This document shows positions 8,409 through 59,540 of a DNA stretch of 64,000 nt, piece after piece (positions within the stretch are counted from its first letter, which is position 1; every line of letters begins with the position of its first letter). The notes under the pieces are model-generated. The model searched no databases, was not told the DNA's origin, and was given only the letters and a program-made list of their open reading frames with translations. The translations under genes were made by a program, and so were the position numbers. The stretch comes from Pseudomonadota bacterium (GTDB taxonomy: Bacteria; Pseudomonadota; Gammaproteobacteria; Burkholderiales; Methylophilaceae). The DNA lies in the NCBI GenBank assembly GCA_029556915.1, contig JAKQIT010000142.1:62001-126000 (forward strand), read 5' to 3'.

Positions 8409-8470
8409 CCAACCCACCAAGCCCGTCTAAATGCGGATTACAGAGGCATGAAAATCTCTCAATGGATTTT
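8409..8470 (-). repeat. REP-like palindrome copy 1 (degenerate)
   Basis: Right half matches the family (GCGGATTACAGAGGCATGAAAA, then TCTC) but the left arm is eroded to CCAAGCCCG. A downstream GATTTTTATG pairs with CATGAAAATC as a second small hairpin. It is the only copy between divergent genes. Confidence 0.65.
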
Positions 8471-8581
8471 TATGAACTTTTTTAATAAAATATTTGCAAA
8501 TAACAAAAGTTTGAATTTATTGATTTTTTACTCTACTTGAGGCATAGTCGTCTCACCAATAACACTAATAACGGAACGCAT

Positions 8582-9145
8582 ATGAAAATAATTAGATTTT
8601 TTCTTTTTGCAGCACTTACTACCAATCTTATTGGTTGCGCATCATTATCCGCACCACCATACAGCCCTGATTATCAAACCCTTGATAAATTAAAAACACT
8701 TAATATCCAAAAAATGGCATTAGGCGAGTTTCAGCCTAGAGACCCAGCCGCCTCAGTCAATAAAATTAGCTTAAGAGGGTCTTCCTTAAAAGCTCAAGAA
8801 GGCGCTTTCTCAATTTATCTAGAAAATGCAATGCGTGACGACTTAAAAGAAATAGGGGTGTTAGACCAAGCTTCAAGTACAAAAATTGATGCAATGGTCA
8901 TTAAAAATGATATAGATATTTCTGGCATCAGCAAGGGCTCAGGAAACATGGAGGTTAAAATCTCAATTCTGAAAGATGGCAATTTAGCACTTGAAAAGGT
9001 TTATACCACCACTACAAATTTTGAATCCTCATTTGCTGGTGCTGTTGCTATTGGCATTGGGCAAAGAGAGTACCCGAACTTAGTTAGAGCATTTCTTAAG
9101 GATATTTACAACGACCCTGAATTTATCAAAGCGGTGCAAAAATGA
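8582..9145 (+). CDS. Uncharacterized lipoprotein
   Basis: The 187-residue product begins MKIIRFFLFAALTTNLIGC: a signal peptide ending in a lipobox (LIGC, Cys at about 19), so it should be an outer- or inner-membrane lipoprotein facing the periplasm. The mature part has alternating polar beta-like segments and FESSFAGAVAIGIGQREYPNLV near the end; I recognise no named domain. The start at 8582 is chosen over 8537 because it puts the signal peptide at the N terminus. Its stop overlaps the next lipoprotein start (ATGA), which suggests translational coupling and a joint role. Confidence 0.82.
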   Translation: MKIIRFFLFAALTTNLIGCASLSAPPYSPDYQTLDKLKTLNIQKMALGEFQPRDPAASVNKISLRGSSLKAQEGAFSIYLENAMRDDLKEIGVLDQASSTKIDAMVIKNDIDISGISKGSGNMEVKISILKDGNLALEKVYTTTTNFESSFAGAVAIGIGQREYPNLVRAFLKDIYNDPEFIKAVQK

Positions 9146-9747
9146 TGTTAAAACTTAGTGGGATCAAATCAATCATTCGCTGTAGATTTTGGCTCATTCT
9201 TTTGCCGTTTATAGCGGCCTGTGCGCACCCTATCACGATTATTCCAAACAAAACGCCAGAGAGGATTGAGACCTCCCTTAGCACTAAAAAGGTGGCTTAT
9301 GTGATAAGTGAGGCGGATAGGAATAATCAAGTTACCACTTCTGGTGGCGGAGGTGACAAAGTAACTTATTATCCTTATCGCGATTTAGAAAAAGCTATTC
9401 GAGATGCACTACGCGCAGTCTATACAGATGTGATTGCAATTCAATCTAATGCTGACACTAAAACTATTGCTGATAATAATATTTCACTAATTTATACCCC
9501 AGAGATCACTACCACATCCAGCTCAGATTCAGCATTTACATGGCCACCCACCTATTTTAGAGTGGAGTTAACTTGCAGCGCCAATGAGCCAAACGGTAAA
9601 GAGCTGACTAAATTAAAAGTGACAGGAAGTGGGAACGCGGAATTCTCAGAGTTTAAGATCAATACTGGCCTTGCTGGCAGCCGAGCCTCTAGTGATTTAT
9701 CAGAAAAACTTAGGCAAGAAATATTAAAAAATCCTGCGTTGCAATAA
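9142..9747 (+). CDS. Uncharacterized lipoprotein, coupled to the preceding gene
   Basis: The 201-residue product has a long basic N-region and a hydrophobic stretch ending LLPFIAACAHP, a lipobox with Cys at about 28. The mature part has a Gly-rich SGGGGDK segment, then a mixed alpha/beta region (KAIRDALRAVYTDVIAIQS). No family is recognised. It overlaps the upstream lipoprotein gene by four bases. The two probably form a paired envelope component; the function is unknown. Confidence 0.8.
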   Translation: MMLKLSGIKSIIRCRFWLILLPFIAACAHPITIIPNKTPERIETSLSTKKVAYVISEADRNNQVTTSGGGGDKVTYYPYRDLEKAIRDALRAVYTDVIAIQSNADTKTIADNNISLIYTPEITTTSSSDSAFTWPPTYFRVELTCSANEPNGKELTKLKVTGSGNAEFSEFKINTGLAGSRASSDLSEKLRQEILKNPALQ

Positions 9748-9820
9748 GCTCAAAACCTTTGGTCCTGTTTAGTTTTAGCTTTGAATTCCATTGAAAAAAC
9801 ACTCCCACATTATTTAAACT

Positions 9821-9884
9821 AACTGCCAAGCCTTATTTTATGGGGCTTTCAGAGGCATAAAAATCTCTCGGGGATTTTTATGCC
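9821..9884 (-). repeat. REP-like palindrome copy 2, with a perfect second hairpin
   Basis: Core AAGCCTTATTTTATGGGGCTT with the CAGAGG arm. Right after it, 9854-9865 and 9873-9884 form 12-bp perfect arms (GGCATAAAAATC / GATTTTTATGCC) around the conserved TCTCGGG. Lies between the lipoprotein gene and mutS. Confidence 0.8.
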
Positions 9885-9982
9885 TAAAATGCAAACATTC
9901 GACTACGAATTTTTTGTAGATTTGATATACCTGATTCAACATATCAGCTACAATTTTTTGCTTAATCTTACCGTGTTTTTTT

Positions 9983-12556
9983 ATGCAGACCGATAGCCAA
10001 AATTTAGCTAACCACACACCCATGATGCGCCAATATTTAGCAATTAAGGCGCAATACCCCGATATGTTAGTGTTTTACCGCATGGGGGATTTTTACGAGC
10101 TATTTTTTGAAGATGCCGAGCGTGCATCGCGTTTGCTGGGCATTACCCTTACACAGCGCGGCACGAGCAATGGTGCGCCGATTAAAATGGCGGGCGTGCC
10201 TTATCATGCGGCGGAAGGTTATTTAGCTAAACTCGCCAAACTAGGCGAAGCCGTGGCAATTTGCGAGCAAATTGGCGACCCCGCCACCAGCAAAGGGCCC
10301 GTAGAGCGCCAAGTGGCACGCATTTTAACGCCTGGCACGCTCACCGACACCGCATTGCTTGATGAATCACGCGATAACCAGTTGCTTAGTATCTTTCAGG
10401 GCGATGGCGTGGTTGGACTGGCGCGACTTAATTTAGCCTCAGGTACATTTATTTTAAGTGAAATCGCCATTGGCTTGCTTAGCCAAGAAATTGAGCGCAT
10501 TGCGCCGAGCGAAATTTTGCTGGCGGATGATTTCACGCACCCTGCCATTAGCGCCACCAAAGCCACCAAAAAGCGTTTAAGTGCATGGCAGTTTGACTAT
10601 GACAGCGCGTTTAATGTGCTGACTGCGCAATTTAACACGCGCGATTTAAATGGCTTCGGCTGTGCTGACTTACACTCCGCCGTGTGCGCAGCAGGCGCTT
10701 TACTTGACTACGCCAAGCACACCCAACGCACCACGCTGCCGCACATTAACGCGTTTAGCGTTGAATCCACCAGCGAATATTTGCAGCTCGATGCCGCCAC
10801 ACGCCGCAATTTAGAAATTGATGTCACCTTGCGTGGAGAAGCCTCGCCCACGCTGTATTCGCTGCTCAATACCACTCAAACGGCGATGGGCGCGCGGCTG
10901 TTGCGCCATTGGTTGCACCACCCTTTGCAAAACCGTAATTTGGTGCTTAAACGGCATGAAGCGGTGGCTGAGTTGATTCAAAATGAAAGCCATTTGCCAC
11001 TTAGCCGCACCTTAAAAACGGTGGGCGATATTGAGCGCATTGTAGCGCGCGTGGCGCTTAAAACCGCACGGCCGCGCGATTTATCCAGCTTAGCGACCAG
11101 TTTGCAACAGTTGCCGCAACTACAAAGTTTGTTATCTACAGTGCAAACCAGCCTGTTACAAACACTAAACGCGCATTTAACCGCGCCGCATAACGTGGTG
11201 CACCTGCTTACCCACGCCATTAAAGCCGAGCCCAGCACCGTGTTGCGCGATGGTGGCGTGATAGCCGATGGTTACGATGCCGAGCTCGATGAATTGCGTG
11301 GCTTACAAAATAACCACGGTGAATTTTTACTGCAATATGAAGCCGCCGAAAAAGCCCGCACAGGCTTAACAAACCTGAAGGTGGAATACAACAGCGTGCA
11401 TGGCTTTTACATAGAAATGAGCCGCGCGCAGGCGGAAAATGCTCCGCCAGAATATCGCCGCCGCCAAACGCTTAAAAATGTAGAGCGCTTTATCACGCCA
11501 GAGCTTAAGGCTTTTGAAGACAAAGTGCTCAGCGCAAATGACCGTGCACTTGCGCGCGAAAAAATGCTATATGCTCAAATTTTAGAGCAATTGATGCCGT
11601 TTATTAGCGCCTTACAAACCAATGCTGGCGCAGTAGCTAGCTTGGATGTTTTGTGTAGCTTTGCTGAGCGCGCGCAAGCGCTAAATTATGTGGCGCCGAT
11701 ATTTAGCAATGAGGCTGGTATTCAAATTATAGGCGGCCGCCACCCTGTGGTAGAAAGTATCGCCCAACCTTTTGTGGCCAATGACGTTAGCCTAAACCCA
11801 TACCGCCAACTATTGCTCATTACTGGCCCAAATATGGGCGGTAAATCTACTTTTATGCGGCAAACGGCGTTAATTGTATTGCTCGCACATTGTGGCAGCT
11901 ACGTGCCAGCAACTTCGGTTATAATCGGAGAAATTGACCGTATTATGACGCGAATTGGCGCATCGGATGATTTAGCGGGCGGCAGATCAACCTTTATGGT
12001 AGAAATGACCGAAACTGCCAATATTTTGCACAATGCCACGGATAAAAGTTTGGTGTTGCTGGATGAAATTGGCCGCGGCACCAGCACCTTTGATGGCTTA
12101 AGCCTCGCTTGGGCGGTGGCCAAACAGCTACTTGAAAAAAACCGCGCCTACACACTGTTTGCCACCCATTATTTTGAGCTCACCCGCATAGTGGATGACT
12201 TTAAACAAGCCGCCAACGTGCATTTAGATGCGGTAGAACATGGAAATAACATTGTGTTTATGCACAAAGTTGAAGAAGGCGCCGCCAACCAAAGCTACGG
12301 CTTGCAAGTGGCGCAGTTAGCTGGCATCCCCAAAAGTGTGGTGGCCAGTGCCAAGCGAAAGCTGCAACAATTAGAGGCCAGCCAAATTGCGCAACATACA
12401 CATCAACCCGATATGTTTAGCCAAAACGAAGCGCCAATTGAAACCCCAACCCACCCTGCGCTTGCAGAACTTGAAGCGCTACAACCCGATGATTTAACCC
12501 CAAAACAAGCGCTGGAATTTTTGTATCAATTACAAAAAATTATCAAAAACACATAG
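9983..12556 (+). CDS. mutS: DNA mismatch repair protein MutS
   Basis: MutS recognises mismatches and small loops and starts repair with MutL, using ATP. It is 857 residues (E. coli 853). The mismatch-contacting motif GDFYELF is at about 34-40. The connector, lever and clamp domains follow. Walker [10 protein letters not shown] is at about 614, the Walker B region [12 protein letters not shown] at about 690, and ATHYFELT follows. The C-terminal tail includes a DMF motif-like segment (QPDMFSQ) and the helical tetramerization end. Base composition is more GC-rich, with many GCGC steps, than the neighbouring lipoprotein genes. No mutL is nearby. Expression is probably independent, as REP copy 2 lies upstream. 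Confidence 0.98.
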
Positions 12557-12597
12557 ATATTAAGCAATTGAAAATAGATAAAAAAATGATATTTGGC

Positions 12598-12627
12598 TTG
12601 ACTCTGGCTTTATTTTGCTTGTAATGT
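12598..12627 (+). promoter_or_regulatory. Candidate sigma-70 promoter for the 107-residue unknown gene
   Basis: TTGACT (12598-12603) is 18 bases from TAATGT (12622-12627), with the ATG 43 bases further on. Confidence 0.45.
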
Positions 12628-12670
12628 TTCTTTTATAAAGCATTACTTTAACCAAGCCGAAAAACCGATT

Positions 12671-12994
12671 ATGATTAAAACCTTGCCAAAAATTGAAGGT
12701 GAAATGACTTTTAGCGAAAGTTATAAACTGACATCGACATCAATTGAGCATGCGTATCAAACCTTGCGAAACCAATACGTGACAACTGAAACTGCCGCAT
12801 TTTTACGAAAAAATTTACCTATTCAAAATACTGAGGATTATTTTGACGATGAGATATACCTAGCGATTGATTATAAATACATCGACACAGCATCAGTAGT
12901 TGTAACCGTATTCTGGCATGGTGGACAAGATGTGCATGAAATTAAACTCCTAAACAACCAAGCTAAGTTAACTATCACAAACTACGCAGACTAA
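12671..12994 (+). CDS. Hypothetical protein, 107 residues
   Basis: A small, cytoplasmic-looking protein with no signal peptide or membrane segment. It has an acidic middle (TEDYFDDEIYLAIDYKY) and a beta-rich C-terminal half (ASVVVTVFWHGGQDVHEIKL). I recognise no family. Support as a gene comes from a candidate promoter upstream, a coding-like composition and absence of a better frame. It stands alone between mutS and a long repeat region, so it may be an accessory gene. Confidence 0.6.
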   Translation: MIKTLPKIEGEMTFSESYKLTSTSIEHAYQTLRNQYVTTETAAFLRKNLPIQNTEDYFDDEIYLAIDYKYIDTASVVVTVFWHGGQDVHEIKLLNNQAKLTITNYAD

Positions 12995-13067
12995 ATCTAA
13001 CCCCAAAATGTGCGTTAGAATTTTTGTACAAAATGAAAGAAATTTTAGATAAAAATTAATTTAAAAA

Positions 13068-13140
13068 TCGCCCGAGAGAATTTTGATGCTCTGGAAGCCG
13101 CATAGAATAAGGCTTGCAGAGGAGGTGAAATGATGTTGTG
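13068..13140 (+). repeat. REP-like palindrome copy 3
   Basis: CGCCCGAGAGAATTTT box, then CTCTGGAAGCC / GGCTTGCAGAG arms around a GCATAGAATAA loop, then GGTGAAATGATGTTGTG. A near-consensus copy between convergent genes. Confidence 0.88.
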
Positions 13141-13166
13141 CCAAAAATAGGCGTTTTTTATTAAAA

Positions 13167-13278
13167 ATGGATTCCCGCTTTCGCGGGAATGACGGGTGAT
13201 GTCAGCTGAGTGAAACGAAAAATCCAGCAGTTTGAACGTTACAACAATCTGGATTCTTCGCTATGCTCAGAATGACGG
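13167..13278. repeat. Three-unit cluster of a GGATTC...GAATGACGG repeat
   Basis: A unit of about 28-32 bp occurs three times: 13168-13195 (plus; its centre CCCGCTTTCGCGGG is itself a hairpin), 13196-13227 (minus, diverged) and 13249-13278 (plus). Units share TGGATTC at the start and a GAATGACGG-like end. Sequences of this kind are widespread in intergenic DNA of many proteobacteria and resemble the dRS3-type elements of Neisseria. Confidence 0.75.
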
Positions 13279-13297
13279 CACTCAAATGGTTTTGACT

Positions 13298-13517
13298 TTA
13301 AACTCCCCTGCTATCGCGCCTACATTTTATTTAATGATGGGAGTTTTCGGTAAGCGGCTGTTTGAGCCAAATTGATTTTATTTGGCGAGTTTCCGATTGC
13401 CGCCCATACTTATGCAAAAATCAGGAAACAAGCGGTAGGGGGTGTCTTTTTACTTTGGTTACTTTCTTTTGGACAAGCACAAGAAAGTAACTCGCCTAGG
13501 GGCGAAAAAGTACTTTT
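13298..13517 (+). repeat. Composite structured repeat, copy 1
   Basis: About 220 bp, closely similar to 50716-50936 in the same orientation. Shared blocks: CTCCCCTGCTA.CGCGCC, AAGCGGCTGTTTGAGCCAA, GGCGAGTTTCCGATTGCCGC, CAGGAAACAAGCGGTAGGGG, and a closing hairpin (GTTACTTTCTT / AAGAAAGTAAC). It ends five bases from the NIPSNAP gene stop codon. Confidence 0.85.
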
Positions 13518-13521
13518 TAAT

Positions 13522-13827
13522 CTACTTAAAAACGGGTCTGAAAAAACTGCGTTCATTACTGACAATACAACGCGTATCTTCAGCATACTTAAACGCAGCT
13601 AAACAATCTGCGTCTTGAAGAGATTTCGCACGATATTCTTCATAAAGAGCCAAACTAGGAAAAGTAAACATTGCTAAAGCAACATTATTTGCACCCTCAG
13701 ATGGCAAAAAATAGCCATGATGCTGCCCACCCATTTTTTCAACCAATGGAATCCAGAGTTTTCCATAACGCTCAAACTCTTCGAGCTTATAAGGGTCAAT
13801 TACATAGCGAAGATAACAAGTTATCAT
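13522..13827 (-). CDS. NIPSNAP-family protein
   Basis: This 101-residue protein matches the bacterial NIPSNAP type, a dimeric alpha/beta-barrel fold: MITCYLRYVIDPYKLEEFERYG at the start, GGQHHGYFLPSEGAN in the middle and ERSFFRPVF at the end. The length and both ends are normal, so it is complete even though its stop lies against composite repeat copy 1. The biochemical role of bacterial members is not established. It follows slyD on the same strand, six bases after its stop, and is probably cotranscribed. Confidence 0.85.
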   Translation of the reverse strand: MITCYLRYVIDPYKLEEFERYGKLWIPLVEKMGGQHHGYFLPSEGANNVALAMFTFPSLALYEEYRAKSLQDADCLAAFKYAEDTRCIVSNERSFFRPVFK

Positions 13828-13833
13828 GATTTA

Positions 13834-14313
13834 CTAGTGATGATGCCCACCCGCCCCATGCACATGCTGATGCGAAACCTCTTCAGCATTGGCAGTGCGT
13901 ACATCCGTAATCGTCGCGGTAAACACCACGCGCTCGCCCGCCCAAGGGTGGTTGCCATCTACCACCACTTTACCATCGGCAATTTCGGTTACGGTGTATA
14001 AAATCACTTCACCAGTTTCGTCTTCACCTTCAAATTGCATACCGACTTTTAACTCAGCCGCTGGAAAAGCACTGGCTGGCTCAATTTGCACTAATTCTTC
14101 ATCGTATTCACCAAAGGCATCATCTGGTTGTAAGTCAACAATCACCACATCGCCAATATTTTTACCATGTATGGCTTCTTCAACTTTTGGGAAAATATTA
14201 TCGTAACCGCCATGCAAATACGCCACTGGCTCAGAGCTAGCTTCTAGCACATTGCCATCGGCATCTTTTAGTTCGTAGGTCATGGTGACGACAGTATTCA
14301 TGGTGACTTGCAT
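13834..14313 (-). CDS. slyD: FKBP-type peptidyl-prolyl isomerase SlyD
   Basis: SlyD is a cytoplasmic proline isomerase and chaperone that also binds metals. The 159 residues show the FKBP half (VVTMTYELKDADGNVLE, GGYDNIFPKVEEAI), the inserted-flap chaperone domain (about 70-130, ending DGNHPWAG), then the FKBP end. The tail HQHVHGAGGHHH is His-rich and metal-binding but much shorter than in E. coli. A strong ribosome site (GAGG) precedes the ATG at 14313. NIPSNAP follows in the same direction. Confidence 0.95.
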   Translation of the reverse strand: MQVTMNTVVTMTYELKDADGNVLEASSEPVAYLHGGYDNIFPKVEEAIHGKNIGDVVIVDLQPDDAFGEYDEELVQIEPASAFPAAELKVGMQFEGEDETGEVILYTVTEIADGKVVVDGNHPWAGERVVFTATITDVRTANAEEVSHQHVHGAGGHHH

Positions 14314-14408
14314 GGTATATTCCTCTGTAAATTTTAAAAATTATTAGCGTGAATTTTAATCTATTTTAATCTGTAACGTGGTTAATATTTTACGCATTTC
14401 GTGCAAAA

Positions 14409-15998: not shown

Positions 15999-16232
15999 AG
16001 TATAAAGCTCCAGCTTGATGTAGCCACCCTATTACTTATGAAGCAACACCAATCGAGGAAGGCAAAGTTATTATCTTTAGCGTGATTTGAAAAATCAGAA
16101 AGATTAAGTAAGAAACCTACGCAGATTGGTTGGCGCAGGATTTGAGTTTGTAGCTGGCATTATACGGAAGATTTAAATTAAAGCGAGCATTGCGCTGAAA
16201 TCAACCCATGCAAAATATGAGCCAAGCGAAAA

Positions 16233-16535: not shown

Positions 16536-16650
16536 ATTGTTCTCGATAACGGTAAATTTAATCAAGCAAGCATCTTCGTTTTGATGAATATTCTACAACT
16601 TTATCGGCAATATTTCACGTCTAAACATGATGCTAAACAACTAAGCTAAA

Positions 16651-16722
16651 CGCCCGAGAGAATTTTACACCTCTGGAAGCCGCATTGATACTGGCTTACA
16701 GAGGATGTGAAATGATTTGTTG
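16651..16722 (+). repeat. REP-like palindrome copy 4
   Basis: CGCCCGAGAGAATTTT box, CCTCTGGAAGCC / GGCTTACAGAGG arms, loop GCATTGATACT, then TGTGAAATGATTTGTTGT. Lies 3' of the nuclease gene. Confidence 0.88.
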
Positions 16723-16824
16723 TTAAAAAAGGCTATTTTGAAAGATTTTTTGTTTCAATTTTAAGCAAAAAAATTCACCTAAAACTGTCACTCTTTACAA
16801 CGTTCAGATTGACAACATTCGAGA

Positions 16825-17316: not shown

Positions 17317-18970
17317 CAACTGATGGGCGGCCTTGACCTTGCTTTCCATCTAACAAACTATAGTAATTCGATGGTACTAGCACGGTTGGTATTGGGTCTG
17401 GCTCAGTTTCAGGGTAATCTTTACTATAGTGCAGGCCACGGCTTTCTTTACGTGAAATTGCACTTTCTACAATCAATTCAGCTACTTGCAATAAATTACG
17501 CAACTCGATTAAGTCATTACTGATTTTAAAGTTGCTGTAAAACTCATGCACCTCATCGCGCAACATGTGCAGACGATGCAAAGCGCGGCTCAGGCGTTTA
17601 TCGGTGCGCACAATGCCTACGTAGTTCCACATAAAGCGGCGTAGCTCATCCCATGTGTGGGTAATCAGCACCTCTTCATCTGCGTCAGTCACGCGGCTTT
17701 CATCCCAATGCGGCAATAGTGGCGAGGCTTTAGCTGGCTGACTTAAAATATCTTCCGCTGCGCGCTGACCAAATACTAAACATTCCAGCAAAGAGTTGCT
17801 CGCTAAACGGTTTGCCCCATGCAAGCCCGTGCAGGCGGTTTCGCCTATCGCATATAAGTTTTTGATGTCGGTACGACCTTGATCGTCCGTCATTACACCT
17901 CCACAAGTGTAATGTGCGGCTGGCACCACAGGAATAGGTGTTTTGCTAATATCAATGCCAAAGCTCAAGCAGCGTTTGTGAATGTTGGGAAAATGCTCTT
18001 GTATAAAATCTAACGGTTTGTGCGTAATGTCCAAATACACGCAATCGATACCGCGCTTTTTCATTTCAAAGTCAATGGCGCGGGCAACCACATCGCGCGG
18101 GGCGAGTTCTTCACGCGCGTCATGTTCTGGCATAAAACGTGTGCCATCGGGCAACCGCAACAAACCACCCTCACCGCGCACCGCCTCACTAATTAAAAAT
18201 GATTTTGCGTGGGGATGATATAAACAAGTAGGGTGAAACTGCACAAATTCTAAATTGGCCACACGGCAGCCCGCGCGCCATGCCATTGCAATGCCATCCC
18301 CCGTGCTCACATCTGGGTTGGTAGTGTACAAATATACTTTGCCCGCACCACCCGTGGCCAGCACGGTATTTTGCGCGGCTATGGTAATCACCTTACCCGT
18401 AAATTTATCAAGCACATAAGCACCCAAACAGGCATTATCGTCACCCGGTTTAATTTTCGCTCTTACAACTTTGCGCCGATTCATTTTACGCGTGGTGATT
18501 AAATCTACCGCAATGTGGTTTTCCATCATTGTGATATTAGGGTGCTGTTTTACTTTTTCTGATAATGTGGTTTGTACGGCGTGCCCAGTCGCATCCGCCG
18601 CGTGAATAATACGGCGGTGGCTGTGGCCGCCCTCGCGGGTTAAATGGTAACCGCTGTTATCGGCCTCGCGAGTAAAACCCACGCCTTGCGCAATGAGCCA
18701 TTCGATAGATGTTTTGGCATTTTCAGCCACTAATCTCGTTACAGCCTCATCGCACAAACCACCGCCCGCCACTAGCGTATCGCGCACATGATTTTCGATA
18801 GAATCATCATTACTTAATACCGCCGAAATACCGCCCTGCGCCCAATCACTGGCAGCGTCATTAATACCGCGCTTACTCACCAAACAAACACTTTTGTGCT
18901 CAGCTGTACGCAAGGCTAATGTTAGCCCCGCAAGGCCGCTACCTATAATTAAAACGTCATATTGCTGCAT
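17309..18970 (-). CDS. nadB: L-aspartate oxidase
   Basis: NadB oxidises L-aspartate to iminoaspartate, the first step of de novo NAD synthesis, using FAD. With the start at 18970 ([17 protein letters not shown]) it has 553 residues (E. coli 540). Visible: the FAD dinucleotide fold at the N terminus, [11 protein letters not shown], the active-site region [14 protein letters not shown], and the C-terminal helical domain ([16 protein letters not shown]). The frame is open to 19114, but the extra 48 residues are not family-like. nadE is about 43 kb away. The gene is divergent from rpoE, the same neighbourhood as in E. coli. Confidence 0.97.
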
Positions 18971-19005
18971 AGTGTGCTGTGTGCTTGTTTGAAGATAAAT
19001 AGAGT

Positions 19006-19892: not shown

Positions 19893-19943
19893 TCATTATT
19901 GAATTTAAAAGCGTATTTTAGAAAAAAGTTTTAGGGGCAACAC

Positions 19944-23513: not shown

Positions 23514-23534
23514 GCACGAAAAACCGATTAAAAA

Positions 23535-23607
23535 TCCCCCGTGAAAAAATTATGCCTCTGTAACCCGCATGGATACTGGCTTGCAGAGGTGGTCAAATGA
23601 TGTTGTG
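23535..23607 (+). repeat. REP-like palindrome copy 5
   Basis: CCTCTGTAACCC / GGCTTGCAGAGG arms (partly mismatched), loop GCATGGATACT, then GGTCAAATGATGTTGTG; the CCGAGAGA box is diverged to CCCGTGAAA. Between convergent mucD and clsB. Confidence 0.83.
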
Positions 23608-23637
23608 TGAATTTAAGTGAAAAAACGTTTAAAAATA

Positions 23638-28360: not shown

Positions 28361-28467
28361 AAACACCTTCCTCTTAAAGTTAAAATCTAATTAAATTCTT
28401 ATCAATTGATGGCAACATTGTCGGCTTGCCCGGCCTATTTTTCAACCTATTTTTTAGCTTAAATGAA

Positions 28468-28538
28468 CACAACATCATTTCACCACCTCGGCAAGCCTTA
28501 TTCTATGCGGCTTACAGAGGCATAAAAATCTCTCGGGG
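28468..28538 (-). repeat. REP-like palindrome copy 6
   Basis: CACAACATCATTTCACC box, CCTCGGCAAGCC / GGCTTACAGAGG arms, loop TTATTCTATGC, then ATAAAAATCTCTCGGGG. Lies 3' of the amidotransferase gene. Confidence 0.87.
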
Positions 28539-28588
28539 TAAAATAAGCCTATTTTCATCAACAATTCAGGGCTTATTTGTAGAGTTTT

Positions 28589-34488: not shown

Positions 34489-34545
34489 GACAAAACTTGC
34501 CACAACCCAATCCTGTCTATTTAGAAAATGTTAAAACAAAAATAA

Positions 34546-34610
34546 CAACCAAATTCATTTAAACGCTCTGCAAGCCAGTATTCATGCGGCTTACAAGGGC
34601 TTTATTTTTT
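34546..34610 (-). repeat. REP-like palindrome copy 7
   Basis: CTCTGCAAGCC / GGCTTACAAGGG arms with loop AGTATTCATGC. The ATCATTTCACC box is weak (TTCATTTAAAC) and the TCTCGGG box is lost, replaced by a T-run, so this copy could act as a terminator. Confidence 0.78.
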
Positions 34611-34693
34611 ATCGCACTATTTTTACAAAAAAAATGAACCAAGTTCAGCGACAAATATAACGTTTCATCTTACAATTCCCTTAAAATTTTTAA

Positions 34694-37554: not shown

Positions 37555-37589
37555 GGCTTAAAAATATTCAATTTTTAAGCGTAATTTTT

Positions 37590-37660
37590 GCCCGAGCAAA
37601 AAATACTGCCCTGCGAGCCGCCTAGAATAAGGCTTGCAGCGGCATGCAAAAGAAGATGTG
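37590..37660 (+). repeat. REP-like palindrome copy 8
   Basis: GCCCGAGCAAAAAA box, CCCTGCGAGCC / GGCTTGCAGCGG arms, loop GCCTAGAATAA, then GCAAAAGAAGATGTG. Diverged copy between the M48 protease and dapD. Confidence 0.8.
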
Positions 37661-37777
37661 GATTTTAAGCCAAATTTAACAGTTTTAATTTTAAGCGCAT
37701 TTCTCATGCGCTTTATTTTTTTGCCGCGCTAATTTAGGTTAAAATAACGTTTTTTAATTAGCCAACAAGCCGAGAGA

Positions 37778-40424: not shown

Positions 40425-40475
40425 ATAGCCTAATTACACTCTTTAAATTAAGGCTGTTTTTCGTAATCTTCCTAT

Positions 40476-40532
40476 CAGCACCTCTGCAAGCCAGTCTGCA
40501 TGGGGCTTACAGAGGTGCTAATTTTTCTCGGG
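40476..40532 (-). repeat. REP-like palindrome copy 9
   Basis: CAGCACCTCTGCAAGCC / GGGCTTACAGAGGTGCT arms extended to 14 or more paired bases, loop AGTCTGCATG, then TTTTTCTCGGGC. Lies 3' of the GGDEF-EAL gene. Confidence 0.85.
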
Positions 40533-40626
40533 CAAATTTTTGGATAAAATAAAGCTATTTTTCATCTTCACATCAAGCCCGCATAAAACTGTTAAAATAC
40601 CACTTTAACTTTTTACCTTTAACACC

Positions 40627-44858: not shown

Positions 44859-44891
44859 AAAAACTGCCGTTTTTAGCGCTTTTTTAAAACA

Positions 44892-44955
44892 AATCATTTC
44901 ACCACCTCTGGAAGCCGCATGCAGACTGGCTTGCAGAGGCACAAAAATTTCTCGG
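44892..44955 (-). repeat. REP-like palindrome copy 10, loop inverted relative to flanks
   Basis: Flanks ATCATTTCACC and TTTCTCGG are in the minus orientation, but the loop reads CCGCATGCAGACTGG, the plus-orientation form. Arms CCTCTGGAAGCC / GGCTTGCAGAGG. Between convergent methyltransferase and fur genes. Confidence 0.87.
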
Positions 44956-44977
44956 CTAATTTTAAGTGATAAAACGC

Positions 44978-47796: not shown

Positions 47797-47837
47797 AAGA
47801 TTAGTTAAGAAAAGAACTTAAAAAAACCTTAAATTAA

Positions 47838-47909
47838 CACAATATCAATTCACCTCCTCTGTAACCCAGTATCTATAAGGGTTACAGAGGCATAAAATTC
47901 GCTCGGCGA
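47838..47909 (-). repeat. REP-like palindrome copy 11, with compensated stem changes
   Basis: CAATATCAATTCACC box, CCTCTGTAACCC / GGGTTACAGAGG perfectly paired arms, loop AGTATCTATAA, then ATAAAATTCGCTCGGC. Both arms differ from the consensus in step. Between convergent vanZ-like and rluB genes. Confidence 0.88.
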
Positions 47910-47940
47910 TATTTATGTGTCAAAAAAAGGCATTTATTGC

Positions 47941-49071: not shown

Positions 49072-49154
49072 GGTGTTTCGCTAATGGGATTGAATAACCA
49101 GCATTTTACCGCATAAGCATATAAAACTCAGATATTCCTTCAACTTAGTATTAC

Positions 49155-49706: not shown

Positions 49707-49713
49707 GTTCAAA

Positions 49714-50508: not shown

Positions 50509-50596
50509 GCGATTATTGTAATGTAATTAACGCCGATGAACGCAAATACACACAGATTTTTTGCGTAATAAAAAGTACGATAAATTAACGATAAAT

Positions 50597-50668
50597 CGCC
50601 CGAGAGATTTTTGATACCCTGCAAGCCGCATGGATACTGGCTTAGCGGGGAGGTGAAATGATATGTGC
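50597..50668 (+). repeat. REP-like palindrome copy 12
   Basis: CGCCCGAGAGATTTTT box, CCCTGCAAGCC / GGCTTAGCGGGG arms (partly mismatched), loop GCATGGATACT, then AGGTGAAATGATATGTGC. Confidence 0.87.
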
Positions 50669-50715
50669 AAAAAATAAGTCAAAAATTGATAAATTTTTGC
50701 TCAACATTTGGTGTT

Positions 50716-50936: not shown

Positions 50937-50946
50937 AATTACATTC

Positions 50947-50969
50947 GGCGTACCGCAAGCAGGTACGCC
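50947..50969. repeat. 8-bp perfect hairpin
   Basis: GGCGTACC (50947-50954) and GGTACGCC (50962-50969) around GCAAGCA, just 3' of the minus-strand secreted-protein gene. No T-run, so an intrinsic terminator is doubtful. Confidence 0.6.
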
Positions 50970-50977
50970 CTACCGTG

Positions 50978-52760: not shown

Positions 52761-52808
52761 GTGAGTTTTTTAAAAACCTTAAATTAAATAGGTGCTTATT
52801 ATAACAAG

Positions 52809-53444: not shown

Positions 53445-53453
53445 TTTTTCCTC

Positions 53454-54089: not shown

Positions 54090-54091
54090 AT

Positions 54092-54958
54092 TTAAGCGGC
54101 TAAACCATCACCCAAACCAGCCACCTCAGGCCAATCAAGCCAAACGGGCACGCAATTATTGGGTAAAGCTGGTAAACGCCCCATTTCCATAAAACTAATA
54201 CCAACGCCGTGATAATCTGACCCTTGCGATGACTTTAAACCAAATTGGTGGGCGATTTTCGCAAACTGCTGATATTGCGGTGGCGTGTGGCTACCGGTGA
54301 CCACTTCAATAGCCGTGCCGCCATATTTTCTAAACTCATGCATCAATAATAACATGTTAATCATGCCTAAATCATAGCGACCAGGGTGGGCGATGACTGC
54401 GATACCACCACTCTCTTTAATTAAAGTAACGGCTTGCTCTAAACTCATCCATTGATGGTCAACAAAGCCAGGTTTACCTTTGACTAAAAACTTTTTAAAC
54501 ACAGACTTTGTGTCTTTAGCATGCCCACTTTCAACTAAAAAGCGTGCAAAATGCACACGGGTAATGACATTTTGCTTAGCAATATTCTTTGCAGCTTCAT
54601 AAGCGCCCAAAATACCAACCTTGGCCAATCCTTCGCCCATTTGTTGCGCCCGCAAGTCGCGGTCGGCATACACTTGATTCAGCGCTTGATTTAGAGCAGC
54701 GTTTTGTGGGTCAATTTTTAAGCCAACAATATGGATGGTTCGTTTTTTCCATGTAACCGAAATTTCAACGCCATCAATAAACTGCATATCATAAAGTTTG
54801 GCAGCTTCTCTGGCGATAGCCAAGCCGCCCAAGTTATCATGGTCGGTGAGGGCTAATACTTTAATGCCTTGCCCAGCCGCATAAGCAACTAAATCTTGTG
54901 GCGACCGCATACCATCTGAAACGGTAGAGTGGCAGTGTAAATCAATCGGGTCTGACAT
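54092..54958 (-). CDS. rnm: PHP-domain nucleoside-bisphosphate phosphatase / RNase AM
   Basis: A metal-dependent PHP-family phosphoesterase of 288 residues. Metal ligands: DLHCHSTVSDG at the N terminus, LTDHDNLGG (about 38), GVEIS (about 63), AVIAHPGRY (about 190) and GSDYHG (about 250). E. coli YciV/RNase AM removes 5' nucleotides from rRNA, and the family also dephosphorylates 3',5'-bisphosphonucleosides. First gene of the rnm-yciO-M50-trpS operon, divergent from yciB, matching the yciV/yciO link in E. coli. Confidence 0.93.
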   Translation of the reverse strand: MSDPIDLHCHSTVSDGMRSPQDLVAYAAGQGIKVLALTDHDNLGGLAIAREAAKLYDMQFIDGVEISVTWKKRTIHIVGLKIDPQNAALNQALNQVYADRDLRAQQMGEGLAKVGILGAYEAAKNIAKQNVITRVHFARFLVESGHAKDTKSVFKKFLVKGKPGFVDHQWMSLEQAVTLIKESGGIAVIAHPGRYDLGMINMLLLMHEFRKYGGTAIEVVTGSHTPPQYQQFAKIAHQFGLKSSQGSDYHGVGISFMEMGRLPALPNNCVPVWLDWPEVAGLGDGLAA

Positions 54959-55074
54959 TTAGGTCAACCATAAAATAGCTCAAAAAAACAAAAAGTGTAT
55001 AATGCGCTTGAAATTAACACCTTATGACACAACATTCATCATATCAAATTAGCCGCACACTCTAAAGCACACAT

Positions 55075-55713
55075 ATGAAGTTTTTATTTGACCTTTTCCC
55101 TGTTATTTTCTTTTTTTTCACGCTTAAAGTATCAGAAAAAACGGCGGGGGCTGGCGCTTTTTTGAGAAGCATTTTAGATGCTGTAGGCATCCACACCGCT
55201 GTTAAACCAGATATGGTGCCTATTATGCTGGCCACTGTAGCCGTTATTGTTGCCAGCATTATACAAATTGCATGGGTTAAGCTACGCCACGGTAAGGTAG
55301 AAAAAACATTGTGGATTAGTGCGGTTTTAGTAGTGGTGCTGGGTTTTCTCACCCTATATTTGCAAGACGATGCATTTATTAAGTGGAAACCAACCATTTT
55401 ATATTGGTTATTCGCCGCTGCCATTTTTATTAGCCAATGGTTTTGGAATAAAAATATTATCCGAGCCATGATGGATAAAAATGTAGAGTTACCTGAGCAT
55501 GTATGGACAAAAATGAATCTCTCTTGGGCAGGTTTTTTTACAGGGCTGGGTTTTTTAAACCTTTTCGTGGCCAAAACATTCAGCACTGACACTTGGGCTA
55601 CCTTCAAGTTATTTGGCGCAACAGGCATTATGTTTGTGTTTATTATTGTGCAAATGTTAATGATACAAAAGTACCTACCTAAAGAAGACGAATCTAAAAA
55701 GGATGAGTCATAA
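55075..55713 (+). CDS. yciB: Inner-membrane septation protein A (YciB)
   Basis: A 212-residue integral membrane protein with five or six helices, beginning [19 protein letters not shown] as in YciB/Isp[22 protein letters not shown] and [17 protein letters not shown] are family blocks. It is linked to cell-envelope elongation and septum formation, partly redundant with YciC/DcrB; the mechanism is unsettled. The stop overlaps the yciI start (TAATG). Confidence 0.95.
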
Positions 55714-56012
55714 TGTGGTATGCGATTATGGCTGAAGATGCTCCCAATAGCCTTGAGCAACGACTGAATCATCGTCCTGCACATTTGGCGCGTCTAACCG
55801 CTTTGCAAGATGCAGGACGATTGTTACTGGCGGGACCTTTTCCTGCCATTGACAGCACAGACCCTGGCGCGGCAGGCTTTACTGGCAGTTTAATTGTGGC
55901 TGAGTTTAGCAGTTTAGATGAAGCTAAAACGTGGGCTAACGCTGACCCATTTGTGGCTGCAGGTGTCTATGCCAATGTTATCGTGAAACCTTTTCGCAAA
56001 ACGCTACCCTAA
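55713..56012 (+). CDS. yciI: YciI-family protein
   Basis: A 99-residue ferredoxin-like-fold protein: [42 protein letters not shown], and [15 protein letters not shown] at the end. The conserved His (in RPAHLAR) and Asp residues suggest a small enzyme or binder, but the family role is not known. AAGGATG upstream serves as ribosome site within the end of yciB. In order yciB-yciI-bolA-PPIase. Confidence 0.92.
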
Positions 56013-56016
56013 GTTG

Positions 56017-56280
56017 ATGATGGATTTAGTTACCGAGATTACCCAACGCTTGCAAGTGCTTGAACCTACCCAGTTGGAAATAACCGATGAAAGTCACCTG
56101 CACGCAGGGCATGCAGGCAATATGGGGGGCGGACACTTTAGCTTGCGCATAACAAGCTCGCATTTTTTTGAAAAATCACCGATAATACGCCATCGTCTTA
56201 TTTATCAAGCCCTTACAGATTTAATACCAACAAAAATTCACGCGTTAAGCATTCAAGCGCACGCACCTAGTGAAATTTAA
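56017..56280 (+). CDS. BolA-family protein
   Basis: An 87-residue BolA-fold protein with the signature LEITDESHLHAGHAG (about 20-35) and HFSLRITSSHFFEKSPIIRHRLIY, lacking a C-terminal Cys extension. BolA proteins act with monothiol glutaredoxins in iron-sulfur handling, or as regulators of morphology. The ATG at 56017 (or 56020) is preferred to the TTG at 56014. Four bases after yciI. Confidence 0.88.
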   Translation: MMDLVTEITQRLQVLEPTQLEITDESHLHAGHAGNMGGGHFSLRITSSHFFEKSPIIRHRLIYQALTDLIPTKIHALSIQAHAPSEI

Positions 56281-56347
56281 CTCAGGTGAAATTAACCCAA
56301 GTGAAATTTAACCCCTAATTTTTATTTTTAACCATGAGGATGTTCGC

Positions 56348-57136
56348 ATGAAATTAACCCAAACCTTAATCGCCGCAGCCGTTTTAGCTTTATCATCAAA
56401 CGCTTTTGCAGCAGAAACCATTGCCACCGTTAACGGCAAAGGCATCAATAAATCTGTTTATGACTACATTGCTAAAGATGCAACAGCACGTGGCCAAAAA
56501 GTAGATGACCAAGTTAAAATGGCCATTACCAACAAGTTGGTAGATTCCGAAATTGTTTACCAAGAAGCGCAAAAACTTGGTCTAGATAAAACATCTGACT
56601 ACCAAGCGCGTGAAGAGCTTACTCGCCGTGAATTACTGACTTCTGCTTACTTACAAGATTTTGTGAAGAAAAACCCAATTTCAGAAACCGACAAAAAAGC
56701 TGCTTATGAAGAATACAAAAAAGCTTATGGCGAAAAAGAATATAGTGCTCGTCATATTTTGGTAAAAACGGAAGCTGAAGCCAAAGAAATTATTGCTAAA
56801 TTGCAAAAAGGTTCAGATTTTGCCAAATTAGCCAAAGAGAAATCATTAGACCCAGGCTCAAAAGATAAAGGCGGCGATTTAGGTTGGTTCTCACCAGCAA
56901 CAATGGTAAAACCATTTAGCGATGCCGTAGCAGCTTTGCCAAAAGGCAAAACAACAGCCGAACCAGTACAAACACAATTTGGCTGGCACGTGATTAAAAT
57001 GATAGACACGCGTGCATCACAGCCTTTATCTTATGACAAAGTAAAAGAGGGTTTAGAGAAAAACTTGCAACAACGTAATTTAGAAAAAATGATGGCAGAT
57101 TTACGCGCAAAAGCAAAAGTTGATATTGCAAAATAA
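56348..57136 (+). CDS. Periplasmic parvulin-type peptidyl-prolyl isomerase
   Basis: A folding helper of 262 residues. The signal peptide ends ALSSNAFA. A SurA-like N-terminal helical region (about 25-125) precedes one parvulin domain (about 130-225: YSARHILVKTEAEAKEII, SLDPGSKDKGGDLGWFSP, VQTQFGWHVIKM). It is related to PrsA/PpiC-type foldases that assist outer-membrane proteins. GAGGATG gives a strong ribosome site. A terminator follows, closing the yciB operon. Confidence 0.93.
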   Translation: MKLTQTLIAAAVLALSSNAFAAETIATVNGKGINKSVYDYIAKDATARGQKVDDQVKMAITNKLVDSEIVYQEAQKLGLDKTSDYQAREELTRRELLTSAYLQDFVKKNPISETDKKAAYEEYKKAYGEKEYSARHILVKTEAEAKEIIAKLQKGSDFAKLAKEKSLDPGSKDKGGDLGWFSPATMVKPFSDAVAALPKGKTTAEPVQTQFGWHVIKMIDTRASQPLSYDKVKEGLEKNLQQRNLEKMMADLRAKAKVDIAK

Positions 57137-57163
57137 GTTTTCTTAATCTGTTTTCTTGCTAAT

Positions 57164-57192
57164 AAAAAAAGACTCATTTCGAGTCTTTTTTT
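57164..57192 (+). terminator. Terminator of the yciB-yciI-bolA-PPIase operon
   Basis: AAAAAAAGACTC (57164-57175) pairs with GAGTCTTTTTTT (57181-57192) around ATTTC. Confidence 0.9.
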
Positions 57193-57215
57193 ATTTATCT
57201 GCCCCAGTAAAAAAT

Positions 57216-57286
57216 GTCCGAGAGAAAACAGCACCTCTGCAAGCCCCATAGAATAAGGCTTGCAGAGCATCACAAATAATGTTTGT
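57216..57286 (+). repeat. REP-like palindrome copy 13
   Basis: GTCCGAGAGAAAAC box, CCTCTGCAAGCC / GGCTTGCAGAG arms (perfect), loop CCATAGAATAA, then TCACAAATAATGTTTG. Lies 24 bases after the operon terminator. Confidence 0.87.
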
Positions 57287-57378
57287 TTGAAAATTAGCCA
57301 GTTAAGGCTTTTTTATCAAAAAATATTGCAGTTACAATTTAAGTGATATAAGTCAACTACAACTTGCAAAAACTGTGA

Positions 57379-57397
57379 GATAATAAGAACTATTATC
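57379..57397 (+). promoter_or_regulatory. Fur box upstream of feoAB
   Basis: GATAATAAGAACTATTATC (19 bp) has perfect outer arms GATAAT/ATTATC matching the Fur consensus ends, 25 bases before the feoA ATG. It overlaps the likely -10 region, so iron-loaded Fur would block transcription. Confidence 0.75.
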
Positions 57398-57422
57398 ATT
57401 TAAGAAGCTCATATAGAGTACT

Positions 57423-57650
57423 ATGCAAAGTTTGACGCAACTCGCTATTGGTCAACCCGCCACCATATCTGCTATTGAAGCGGATGAGTCGCTTTTTCAT
57501 CGCCTATCTGCACTTGGCTTTCGCGTGGGCAAACCTCTAAGTATCATTCGCCGCGCCAATTTTAATGGCCCACTGCAAGTGCGCCTTGGTACAACCGATA
57601 TTATTTTGCGCACTGCCGAAGCAGCACGCATCCACATAAGCACTAGCTAA
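57423..57650 (+). CDS. feoA: Ferrous iron transport protein A
   Basis: A 75-residue SH3-like protein that supports FeoB. ISAIEADESLFHRLSALGFRVGKPLSII and VRLGTTDIILRTAEAARI are typical FeoA blocks. Sits one base before feoB and 25 bases after a Fur box. Confidence 0.94.
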   Translation: MQSLTQLAIGQPATISAIEADESLFHRLSALGFRVGKPLSIIRRANFNGPLQVRLGTTDIILRTAEAARIHISTS

Positions 57651-57651
57651 T

Positions 57652-59442
57652 ATGAAGCGCATCGCATTATTAGGCATGCCTAATACGGGTAAATCTACCC
57701 TGTTTAATCGCATTAGCGGCGCTTCTGCGCGCGTGGGTAATTGGCCTGGCATTACTGTTGATTTAGCCAGCGCTAAAATTTTGCTCGGCGGGCATATTGC
57801 TCAATTGATTGATTTGCCTGGCATTTATGATTTACATGGCTTTTCTGAGGATGAGCAAGTCGTTAGGCATTTTTTAGAAAACAATGCCATAGATTTAGTT
57901 GTCATTGTGCTTAACAGTGCACAAATCGACCGTCAATTATCGCTTGTACTACAAATCAAAAAACTCAACTTACCAGCTGTATTAGCATTGAATATGTCTG
58001 ACGAAGCCAAACATGCTGGCATTACGATAGACACTGAAAGCCTCACCACCGCCCTTAACATGCCAGTAGTAGCCATTAGCGCTAAGTATGGCGATGGTTT
58101 ACCCAAAGCTTTGCAGGCAGCCACGCAAATCATTAGCCAAAATAAAACGGCAACCAACCCGCAAGAAATCGCCCAGTTGTTGCAAGAAGACAGTCAAATT
58201 GAGCGCGAAATGGAAACCTTAGTGGCGCGCCATGTGCAAATTCCTGCCACACTTAGTGACAGCACCACAGATAAAATTGACCGCGTTTTGCTGCACAAGT
58301 GGTTGGGTTTGCCGCTATTTTTTGCCGCGATGTTTTTACTGTTTCAGTTTATTTTTACCGCAGGCAAACCCCTGCAAGATGGTTTGGCTTGGCTGTTAGA
58401 AATGGTGCGCTCCAGCGCACTAGAGCCCCTTTTTGCCAATGCACCAGCATGGCTAAGCGGCCTGATGTTAGATGGCATTTATAATGGTGTAACCACCGTG
58501 GCGGCTTTTGTGCCCATTATTATTTTATTTTTCATTGTGATGGCGATGGTTGAAGACAGCGGTTATTTGTCTCGTGCTGCTTTTTTAATGGACGCATTGA
58601 TGGCAAAAATGGGCTTGGATGGTCGCGGCTTTGTAATGATGCTGATGGGCTTTGGTTGTAACGTACCAGCGCTGATGGGCACGCGTATTATGCGCTCACG
58701 CCCCATGCGTTTGCTCACCATGCTAGTGATTCCATTGTCACTTTGCTCGGCGCGCTTACAAGTGTTTATTTTTATGATAACGGCACTTTTTACTGCGCAG
58801 CAAGCGCCCATTGTGCTGTTCGCATTGTATGTGATGAGCTTTGCCACCATGTTTTTAACGGCGATTTTATTTCAGGGCCAATACAAAAATGCTGAGCCAT
58901 TTTTATTAGAGCTACCGCCCTATCGCTTTCCTACTGCGCGCCAAATATTACTGCGTGGCTGGCAAGAAGTCAGACATTTTCTCAATCGCGCCACAAAGTT
59001 TATCATCATTGGCGTGGTGCTAGTGTGGGCGTTAACGCATTTTCCTACCGATGTGCCACCTGCGAGTACCGGCACGTATGCAGGGCAAATCGGCGCTTTT
59101 TTTGCCCCTGTGTTAGCGCCGATTGGCATTGATAACCAATTTGCCATCGCGCTCATTTTTGGCTTTGTCGCTAAAGAAATTGTAGTCGGTTCGCTCGCAG
59201 TTATTTTTGGCTTGCAAGGCGATGCACTCACCGCGCAAGTGGCCATGCAAATTGATTGGGTGCAAGCCATGAGTTTTATGCTATTCACACTCATTTATAC
59301 GCCGTGCTTATCCACGGTGGCTACACTCAAAAGTGAATCAAAAAGTACCGCGTATATGTGGCTTTCAATCGTTTGGTCGCTCGCTTTGGCTTGGGTGGTG
59401 AGCTTTATTTTTTACCAAGGTGCGCGAGCCTTGGGATATTAA
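57652..59442 (+). CDS. feoB: Ferrous iron transporter B
   Basis: The inner-membrane Fe(II) transporter with an N-terminal G domain: G1 GMPNTGKST (8-16), G3 DLPGIYDL (about 57), G4 NMSDEAKH (about 114). Membrane helices fill about 215-590, with the Gate motifs including VPALMGTRIMRSRPMRLLTMLVIPLSLCSAR near 340-370. It is 596 residues, shorter than E. coli FeoB (773), a length common in betaproteobacteria. No feoC is seen downstream. Confidence 0.95.
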   Translation: MKRIALLGMPNTGKSTLFNRISGASARVGNWPGITVDLASAKILLGGHIAQLIDLPGIYDLHGFSEDEQVVRHFLENNAIDLVVIVLNSAQIDRQLSLVLQIKKLNLPAVLALNMSDEAKHAGITIDTESLTTALNMPVVAISAKYGDGLPKALQAATQIISQNKTATNPQEIAQLLQEDSQIEREMETLVARHVQIPATLSDSTTDKIDRVLLHKWLGLPLFFAAMFLLFQFIFTAGKPLQDGLAWLLEMVRSSALEPLFANAPAWLSGLMLDGIYNGVTTVAAFVPIIILFFIVMAMVEDSGYLSRAAFLMDALMAKMGLDGRGFVMMLMGFGCNVPALMGTRIMRSRPMRLLTMLVIPLSLCSARLQVFIFMITALFTAQQAPIVLFALYVMSFATMFLTAILFQGQYKNAEPFLLELPPYRFPTARQILLRGWQEVRHFLNRATKFIIIGVVLVWALTHFPTDVPPASTGTYAGQIGAFFAPVLAPIGIDNQFAIALIFGFVAKEIVVGSLAVIFGLQGDALTAQVAMQIDWVQAMSFMLFTLIYTPCLSTVATLKSESKSTAYMWLSIVWSLALAWVVSFIFYQGARALGY

Positions 59443-59462
59443 ATTTTTAGCTAAAATTAAAC

Positions 59463-59540
59463 CAACATCATTTGTTCACCTCTGTAAGCCAGTATCCATG
59501 CGGCTTCCAGAGGCATAAAAATCTCTCGGGGGATTTTTTA
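59463..59540 (-). repeat. REP-like palindrome copy 14, with second hairpin
   Basis: CAACATCATTTGTTCACC box, CCTCTGTAAGCC / GGCTTCCAGAGG arms, loop AGTATCCATGC. Then CATAAAAATC / GATTTTTTATG flank TCTCGGGG as a second hairpin. Between convergent feoB and the DUF486 gene. Confidence 0.88.

Follow-up and report, generated by a model that had tools for sequence, protein, structure and literature searches.

A link of extragenic palindromes with gyrase and with gene ends has been known for a long time, but no clear reason for it has emerged. Among described systems, REP elements and gyrase sites come closest to the elements reported here. Repetitive extragenic palindromic (REP) families with a GTAG tag go together with REP-associated tyrosine transposases (RAYTs) (PMC3733652, PMC2817692); a pair of inverted REPs is described as flanking every RAYT (PMC2817692), and REP copies within genes have been reported (PMC3733652). 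On the gyrase side, the symmetric Escherichia coli motif spans 130 bp, a 36-bp centre lying between two 47-bp flanks whose GC content varies with a period of 10.75 bp; the periodicity was attributed to DNA wrapping around the C-terminal domains of GyrA, and BIME-2 elements and regions downstream of transcribed operons were enriched in cleavage sites (PMC6379681). Every gyrase examined in a later study showed a GC periodicity of 10-11 bp, as did one topoisomerase IV, weakly (PMC12324340, preprint). Here we describe a dense family of palindromic elements with helix-phased flanks in a 64,000-nt stretch (the window; positions 62,001 to 126,000 of contig JAKQIT010000142.1, assembly GCA_029556915.1) of a Methylotenera-type genome of the Methylophilaceae. 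On computational grounds, there is about an even chance that each copy is a double-stranded DNA site wrapped by a protein, most likely DNA gyrase, which would make the family a dispersed element resembling a strong gyrase site.

A dense palindromic family and its distribution

An earlier note on this window had listed 14 copies, one per 4.6 kb, with a shared layout of box, arm, loop, arm and box. All 14 were verified with that layout, specifically box CCGAGAGA-, arm CTCTGNAAGCC, an 11-base loop, arm GGCTTNCAGAG and box AATGATGTTG, and the density was the same, with about one per 6.4 kb in a wider sample. Arm matches with at most one mismatch numbered 26 in the window, against 2.9 in shuffled sequence (shuffle maximum 6). 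The element core is 93 bp long and contains a 33-bp palindrome including the loop; the box CCGAG.GA lies 26-33 bp to the left of the hairpin centre, and the box AATGATGTTG ∼24-34 bp to its right.

A covariance model, the check that the earlier note had proposed, was built on 43 copies, eight of them from the window, and recovered all 14 window loci (E ≤ 2e-9); nine further rows, of 23 in the window, were the opposite strand of the same loci. The expectation of copies elsewhere in the genome was likewise borne out, with 278 core matches at up to two mismatches in the 3.28-Mb genome and none for a reversed-pattern control. In the whole-genome model search, at least 150 loci passed, these being all of the 150 candidates scored (E ≤ 6.2e-12). 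For detailed analysis, 864 kb of the source genome (the window, C14:1-400000, C12:1-240000, and 160 kb of C16) were examined at thresholds of E 0.01 and 1e-4, yielding 134 loci (74 + 60, after removal of 36 opposite-strand rows), from which ∼508 copies per genome are extrapolated. The 129 loci that could be centred on the hairpin form the sample for all placement and flank statistics below; the other five exceed 100 bases, four holding a nested insert and one a variant of it. Rfam at its gathering threshold found only tRNA in the window, with no match to the element. No description of the palindrome family was seen in searches of open-access literature on REP/RAYT, gyrase, or Methylophilaceae/Methylotenera topics, and neither PMC3733652 nor PMC12306157 contains the string "Methylo".

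Relative to the boxes, the hairpin loop is forward in 108 of the 129 copies and inverted in 21 (in the window, 44876-44968), and these inverted cores, about one sixth of copies, suggest in-place flipping of the palindrome. The mid-arm base varies and is mostly mismatched (Watson-Crick in 28/129, 39.8 expected from composition), and covariation is seen at pair 17 of the outer stem (87 paired against 68.6 expected); because of these two properties, the hairpin may matter.

The family was sought in 61 genomes, the source genome being G000. Five were element-rich by model hits, namely G000, G034, and G035 (at least 70 each), G009 (65), and G001 (53); eight further genomes of the genus had 1-9 hits, and 24 genomes from other families of the order had none. 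The earlier note's description of a dense palindromic family is supported. Exact core matches, among the matches listed, came from at least five Methylotenera sp. metagenome-assembled genomes (MAGs) and many unclassified Proteobacteria MAGs. Isolated core hits, one each in Sulfuricella, two Pseudomonas, a Gammaproteobacteria MAG, Clostridiales, and Ruminococcus, lack the boxes and look like chance.

Helix-phased flanks

In a conservation profile drawn from 60 copies, AT-only patches recurred at 11-bp intervals to the left and right of the palindrome. Averaged over the 129 copies, the AT fraction of the flanks swings between ∼0.4 and 0.98 near the centre and the swing is still seen at 120 bp; it is mirror-symmetric about the hairpin centre with a period of ∼11.3 bp and peaks ∼40, 51, 62, 74, 85, 97, and 108 bp out on both sides. 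The Fourier amplitude at 11 bp was 0.114 on the left and 0.098 on the right, against maxima of 0.042 and 0.030 in 2000 random-shift controls. Both arms were in phase over 46-113 bp from the centre in 123 of the 129 copies, compared with 25% of 537 points in element-free gaps, and in 113, 117, and 108 copies over 46-68, 46-90, and 68-113 bp, respectively. Other anchors (41 terminator-like hairpins, stop codons, and start codons) gave amplitudes of only 0.001-0.024, against 0.07-0.11 for the elements. The phase was equal in 20 high-scoring copies each from G035 and G034.

Local power at 11.3 bp was raised 2.1-, 1.7-, and 1.26-fold at 34-68, 68-102, and 102-136 bp, with background beyond, so that the domain of raised power extends to ∼135 bp on each side and the palindrome stands at the centre of some 230-270 bp of phased DNA; phase coherence was measurable out to ∼235 bp. 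Background coherence was considered as a source of these long flanks and rejected, the coherence over 34 bp far from elements being 0.10. Phased flanks of this kind suggest a wrapping protein.

All 14 window copies were positive on both arms, copy 2 barely on both and copy 14 barely on one. They are listed with their span, strand, gap type, covariance-model score, and r of the two arms:

8383..8475, minus strand: copy 1 (degenerate), divergent gap; 52.5 bits; arms r 0.18/0.19
9792..9884, minus strand: copy 2 (degenerate), tandem gap upstream of mutS; 52.8 bits; arms r 0.02/0.07, barely in phase
13059..13151, plus strand: copy 3, convergent gap; 95.5 bits; arms r 0.28/0.29
16641..16733, plus strand: copy 4, tandem gap; 91.9 bits; arms r 0.36/0.34
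23526..23618, plus strand: copy 5, convergent gap; 90.5 bits; arms r 0.63/0.19
28457..28549, minus strand: copy 6, tandem gap; 92.1 bits; arms r 0.28/0.27
34537..34628, minus strand: copy 7 (degenerate), tandem gap; 57.6 bits; arms r 0.15/0.10
37579..37671, plus strand: copy 8 (degenerate), tandem gap; 56.8 bits; arms r 0.44/0.20
40452..40544, minus strand: copy 9, tandem gap, folding into an uninterrupted 16-bp stem; 78.6 bits; arms r 0.30/0.29
44876..44968, minus strand: copy 10, tandem gap, core of the hairpin inverted with respect to the boxes; 80.7 bits; arms r 0.34/0.22
47827..47919, minus strand: copy 11, convergent gap; 88.2 bits; arms r 0.29/0.48
50587..50679, plus strand: copy 12, tandem gap; 83.3 bits; arms r 0.36/0.32
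57205..57297, plus strand: copy 13, tandem gap; 72.5 bits; arms r 0.19/0.30
59450..59542, minus strand: copy 14, convergent gap (feoB end); 97.8 bits, the best of the 150 scored in the genome; arms r 0.01/0.23
12985..13225: example of a whole phased domain, hairpin centre 13105 ± 120 bp; the span is equal for every copy

Placement and turnover

According to the earlier note, copies never lie inside a gene. This holds for the window (0/14), but in the wider sample 11 of the 129 copies fall within open reading frames (ORFs) called by a simple ORF caller, against 88% expected there at random. Two copies lie at edges and 116 are intergenic (48 convergent, 60 tandem, 8 divergent). The convergent figure compares with 21.8 expected by gap length (p = 1.7e-8) or 23.4 by gap count (p = 1.8e-7), and the divergent figure with 22.3 expected by gap length (p = 3e-4; by gap count, p = 7e-4). 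The 48 convergent copies compare with 73 convergent gaps of at least 60 bp (0.66), and in the window four of six such gaps are occupied. BIME-type clusters were looked for and none was found, all 116 occupied gaps holding a single copy. In tandem gaps, the element centre lies at a median of 73 bp past the upstream stop.

Nine of the 11 ORFs containing copies were compared with Pfam, and each matched a family. In three, the copy is close to the called start, which is perhaps placed too early; four copies are interdomain (MutL, anthranilate/PABA synthase, DNA polymerase I, and an ABC exporter, the last being the weakest model row at 26.5 bits and possibly chance), and two, one in a Glu/Gln tRNA-synthetase-like protein and one in a ZIP transporter, fall within the domain that was matched. 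Copies run in frame through Pfam interdomain linkers in L007:2390-4306 (MutL), L014:16457-17851 (anthranilate/PABA synthase), and L097:7093-9879 (DNA polymerase I). Intragenic copies were also tried as a measure of insertion size and set aside: the PolA linker of G000, at 48 residues, falls within the 41-73 of 19 relatives, which leaves no net insertion to measure, and the MutL comparison was made with G010 only.

Comparable gene pairs suggest that copies turn over. Of 27 pairs filled in G000, seven were also filled in a relative (G035 3/3, G034 2/5, G001 2/9, others 0/10), and of 78 empty in G000 one was filled. Filled gaps exceeded their empty counterparts by a median of 152 bp (20 comparisons), against −8 bp for pairs empty in both (77; p = 9e-5), in comparisons that share gene pairs and are not independent; the filled-minus-empty quartiles were 51-176 bp, with some negative values and a 10th percentile of −241 bp. 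A unit of ∼150 bp, longer than the 93-bp core, therefore seems to come and go.

The preference for gene ends and convergent gaps, and the position past upstream stops in tandem gaps, would also suit elements that work mainly in RNA, as bidirectional terminators or 3′-end stabilisers. Folding of four copies is partly in keeping with such a role, two hairpins beating all shuffles (z −4.4 and −4.8) and the other two reaching −1.9. RNAalifold, however, returned no consensus structure for the element, pair counts in an RNA-structure test were mixed, and the lack of an Rfam match noted above points the same way. The consensus has no T-run directly after the hairpin, orientation relative to the upstream gene has no strong bias (24 same, 36 opposite), and an RNA role accounts neither for flanks that terminator-like hairpins lack nor for phasing that extends into coding DNA. 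We consider this explanation very unlikely.

Comparison with gyrase sites

Under the gyrase proposal, the 33-bp palindrome would be the central segment bound and cleaved by the enzyme, with cleavage near the loop, and the boxes ∼24-34 bp out together with the AT patches on both sides would be the DNA wrapped on the two GyrA C-terminal domains, AT-rich minor grooves turned inward. Sites at gene ends, above all between convergent genes, would catch gyrase where transcription pushes positive supercoils together, to the presumed benefit of the cell. The GyrA match spans the full length of the protein. The anatomy looked for in a strong gyrase site, symmetric helix-phased arms about a ∼36-bp centre, was found, though with a period of 11.3 rather than 10.75 bp; a symmetric centre of ∼33-36 bp with two helix-phased AT/GC arms is shared with both the phage Mu strong gyrase site and the E. 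coli motif, and gene-end placement with the latter. There may also be agreement with Mu in phase, depending on the dyad assigned. The Mu record annotates the gyrase cut at 17879/17880; AT in the arms of the site is symmetric about 17877.5, a dyad compatible with that cut, with maxima 40.2 bp out on both sides at a period of 10.75 bp. The elements have their maxima 40.0 bp out on both sides at the same period, and 39.6 bp at 11.3 bp. Known strong gyrase sites are few and single, whereas the elements number an estimated ∼500 with a conserved palindrome in common.

Several observations weigh against gyrase. The dyad at 17877.5 is one of two readings of the Mu cut, the other (17881.5) being asymmetric, and because of this choice we estimate the probability of the Mu phase match alone arising by chance at a few per cent. 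When Mu was scanned with the element profile at 12 settings, 6-229 positions outscored the best one near the strong gyrase site, which never ranked first, and in five settings the best nearby position was about one turn off, at 17888-17889. At ∼11.3 bp, the period is longer than in the E. coli motif (10.75 bp), and with ∼270 bp against 130 bp the phased domain measures about twice the gyrase footprint. No phased flanks were seen at 26 E. coli REPs in 250 kb, although these bind gyrase, and in G001 (13 copies) the flank pattern is weak. Phasing alone does not discriminate, since at a score of 4, 80 of 214 peaks of the phased kernel lay near an element and an antiphase kernel gave 206 peaks. Genome-wide AT periodicity of 11.2 bp is not linked to the elements across species. 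Finally, phasing in coding flanks comes close in strength to that in noncoding flanks and is the same at all three codon positions 102-135 bp out; because of the latter it is not simply silent adaptation, and it follows from both that either the elements settle or survive where flanks are already in register, or coding ends have adapted at all positions.

Two related candidates were dropped. Palindrome-free sites sought by the phased-kernel scan showed no excess over the antiphase kernel. The genome-wide 11.2-bp AT periodicity was first hinted to be a partner of the elements by the comparison of G000 and G001 with G010, and was rejected because G003, G012, and G024 (2, 2, and 9 model hits) have it and element-rich G034 has little. 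In the stretches examined, this periodicity varies within the genus, with G000, G001, G003, G012, G024, and G035 on one side and G007, G010, and G034 on the other; G010 (GC 0.51) has none.

Genome-wide periodicity of ∼11 bp is usually ascribed to nucleoid DNA bending. The elements could be curvature elements bound by a nucleoid protein such as HU, IHF, or another wrapper, or intrinsic bends that pin the tip of a supercoil loop, without gyrase. A phased AT domain reaching ∼135 bp on each side, beyond the gyrase footprint, would fit such an agent, as would an element period equal to the genome-wide period of this and some related species, and the placement suits any supercoil-related role. Bending alone, however, leaves unexplained a conserved palindrome whose 33 bp match the gyrase central segment in size, and the apparent phase agreement with Mu. 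Because the period, the domain length, the Mu scan, and the E. coli REPs count against gyrase, we give gyrase an even chance and regard another wrapping or bending agent as a rather unlikely alternative.

Relation to REP elements and RAYTs

The earlier note called the family REP/BIME-like and pointed to RAYT proteins as the agents that spread known REP/BIME elements; on this reading the copies would be mobilised in trans by a RAYT, with the hairpin as transposase substrate. A short palindrome in more than 100 extragenic copies per genome is what marks the REP superfamily, and the 278 core matches exceed that number. The family also resembles GTAG REP families with a RAYT (PMC3733652, PMC2817692) in copy number, extragenic bias, and occasional intragenic copies, and its variable, mostly mismatched mid-stem base, outer stem covariation, and presence that differs between species speak for such a system.

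The RAYT evidence points elsewhere. A Y1/RAYT flanked by the same palindrome, as the earlier note had suggested seeking, was found in part: the single Y1 protein found in the genome is a REP-associated tyrosine transposase (NF047646, 196 bits, cut-off 80) and it does touch an element, but only one, which replaces its tail. The C-terminal tail (W.S.FH..V..G....W or near) is kept in 15 of 15 RAYTs compared from relatives; in G000, the tail box and palindrome of an element copy stand in its place, and the 5′ side of the gene carries a GTAG palindrome. Such palindromes were sought within 350 bp of 16 RAYT loci of the genus (of 30 fetched) and occurred on the 5′ side of nine and the 3′ side of seven, against ∼0.01 expected per 700 bp in G000, where they are rare (six in 400 kb by a strict stem test). 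Several distinct GTAG palindrome families flank RAYTs of the genus (L022, L023, L024, L025, L027, L028, L031, L032, and L037), with types such as GTAGGTTGGGCTGA and GTAGGGCGGATGAGC. The genus RAYTs thus carry separate, rare GTAG palindromes instead of the element family.

The elements themselves lack the tag. Within 16 nt of the hairpin, GTAG was absent on both sides in all 129 copies, and other tags were scarce (CTAC 0 left, 2 right; CGTC 0 left, 2 right; GACG 2 left, 0 right). RAYT and element numbers also disagree among species, with no RAYT match in element-rich G035, only a fragment in G001, and ten matches in G020 beside one element hit. Two observations run contrary to this: four RAYT matches occur in element-rich G009, and in G034 a copy sits immediately upstream of one RAYT, a locus that also bears a GTAG palindrome on either side. 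E. coli BIME-2/REP elements are likewise extragenic palindromes and are published gyrase targets (PMC6379681), but the present elements are unrelated to them in sequence, untagged, single rather than clustered, and strongly phased in their flanks.

A REP family spread by the RAYT was rejected on the grounds that the genome's own RAYT has a GTAG palindrome and has lost its tail, and that two of the five element-rich species have no intact RAYT. With the sole RAYT so tagged, and with neither tags nor clusters at the elements, REP/BIME membership was not upheld; mobilisation by a RAYT is already weakened and, in our judgement, unlikely. The elements stand between strong gyrase sites and REP elements, because the tested anatomical feature of the former is present and three tested features of the latter are absent.

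A nested insert in the palindrome

A nested sequence of ∼56-60 bp with its own hairpin (TACCAGTNCTTGGCATC...GCACTAAGTCGAATGCG) occupies 21 loci in G000 (L292-L312), for example L016:466-614, L009:14931-15079, and L018:3743-3892. All 21 have it at one point, the middle of an arm of the palindrome, in either arm, two with a degenerate arm, and judged by these sequences it looks like a site-specific insertion into the palindrome. L307, L308, and L312 have a common downstream flank. The insert also occurs in G034 (six), G024 (two), and G003, G012, G018, and G027 (one each), and in L090:2653-2802 that point is occupied by a variant whose inner hairpin differs.

Implications

Abundance of a palindrome and a RAYT in the same genome are insufficient to call the palindrome a REP, because here a RAYT that has a GTAG palindrome of its own coexists with an unrelated palindrome family that is far commoner. 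We tentatively propose, at somewhat less than even confidence, that the family represents a kind of DNA-wrapping element not described before, dispersed in several hundred copies per genome that are gained and lost one by one, in only some species of one genus. By capturing gyrase at roughly two in three convergent gene ends, the copies would determine local supercoiling along the whole chromosome. Almost all copies of this one family show a wrapping signature that is strong and can be measured, and the genus contains species with and without it, making comparison possible; whether dispersed repeats place topoisomerase activity in bacteria thereby becomes a directly testable question.

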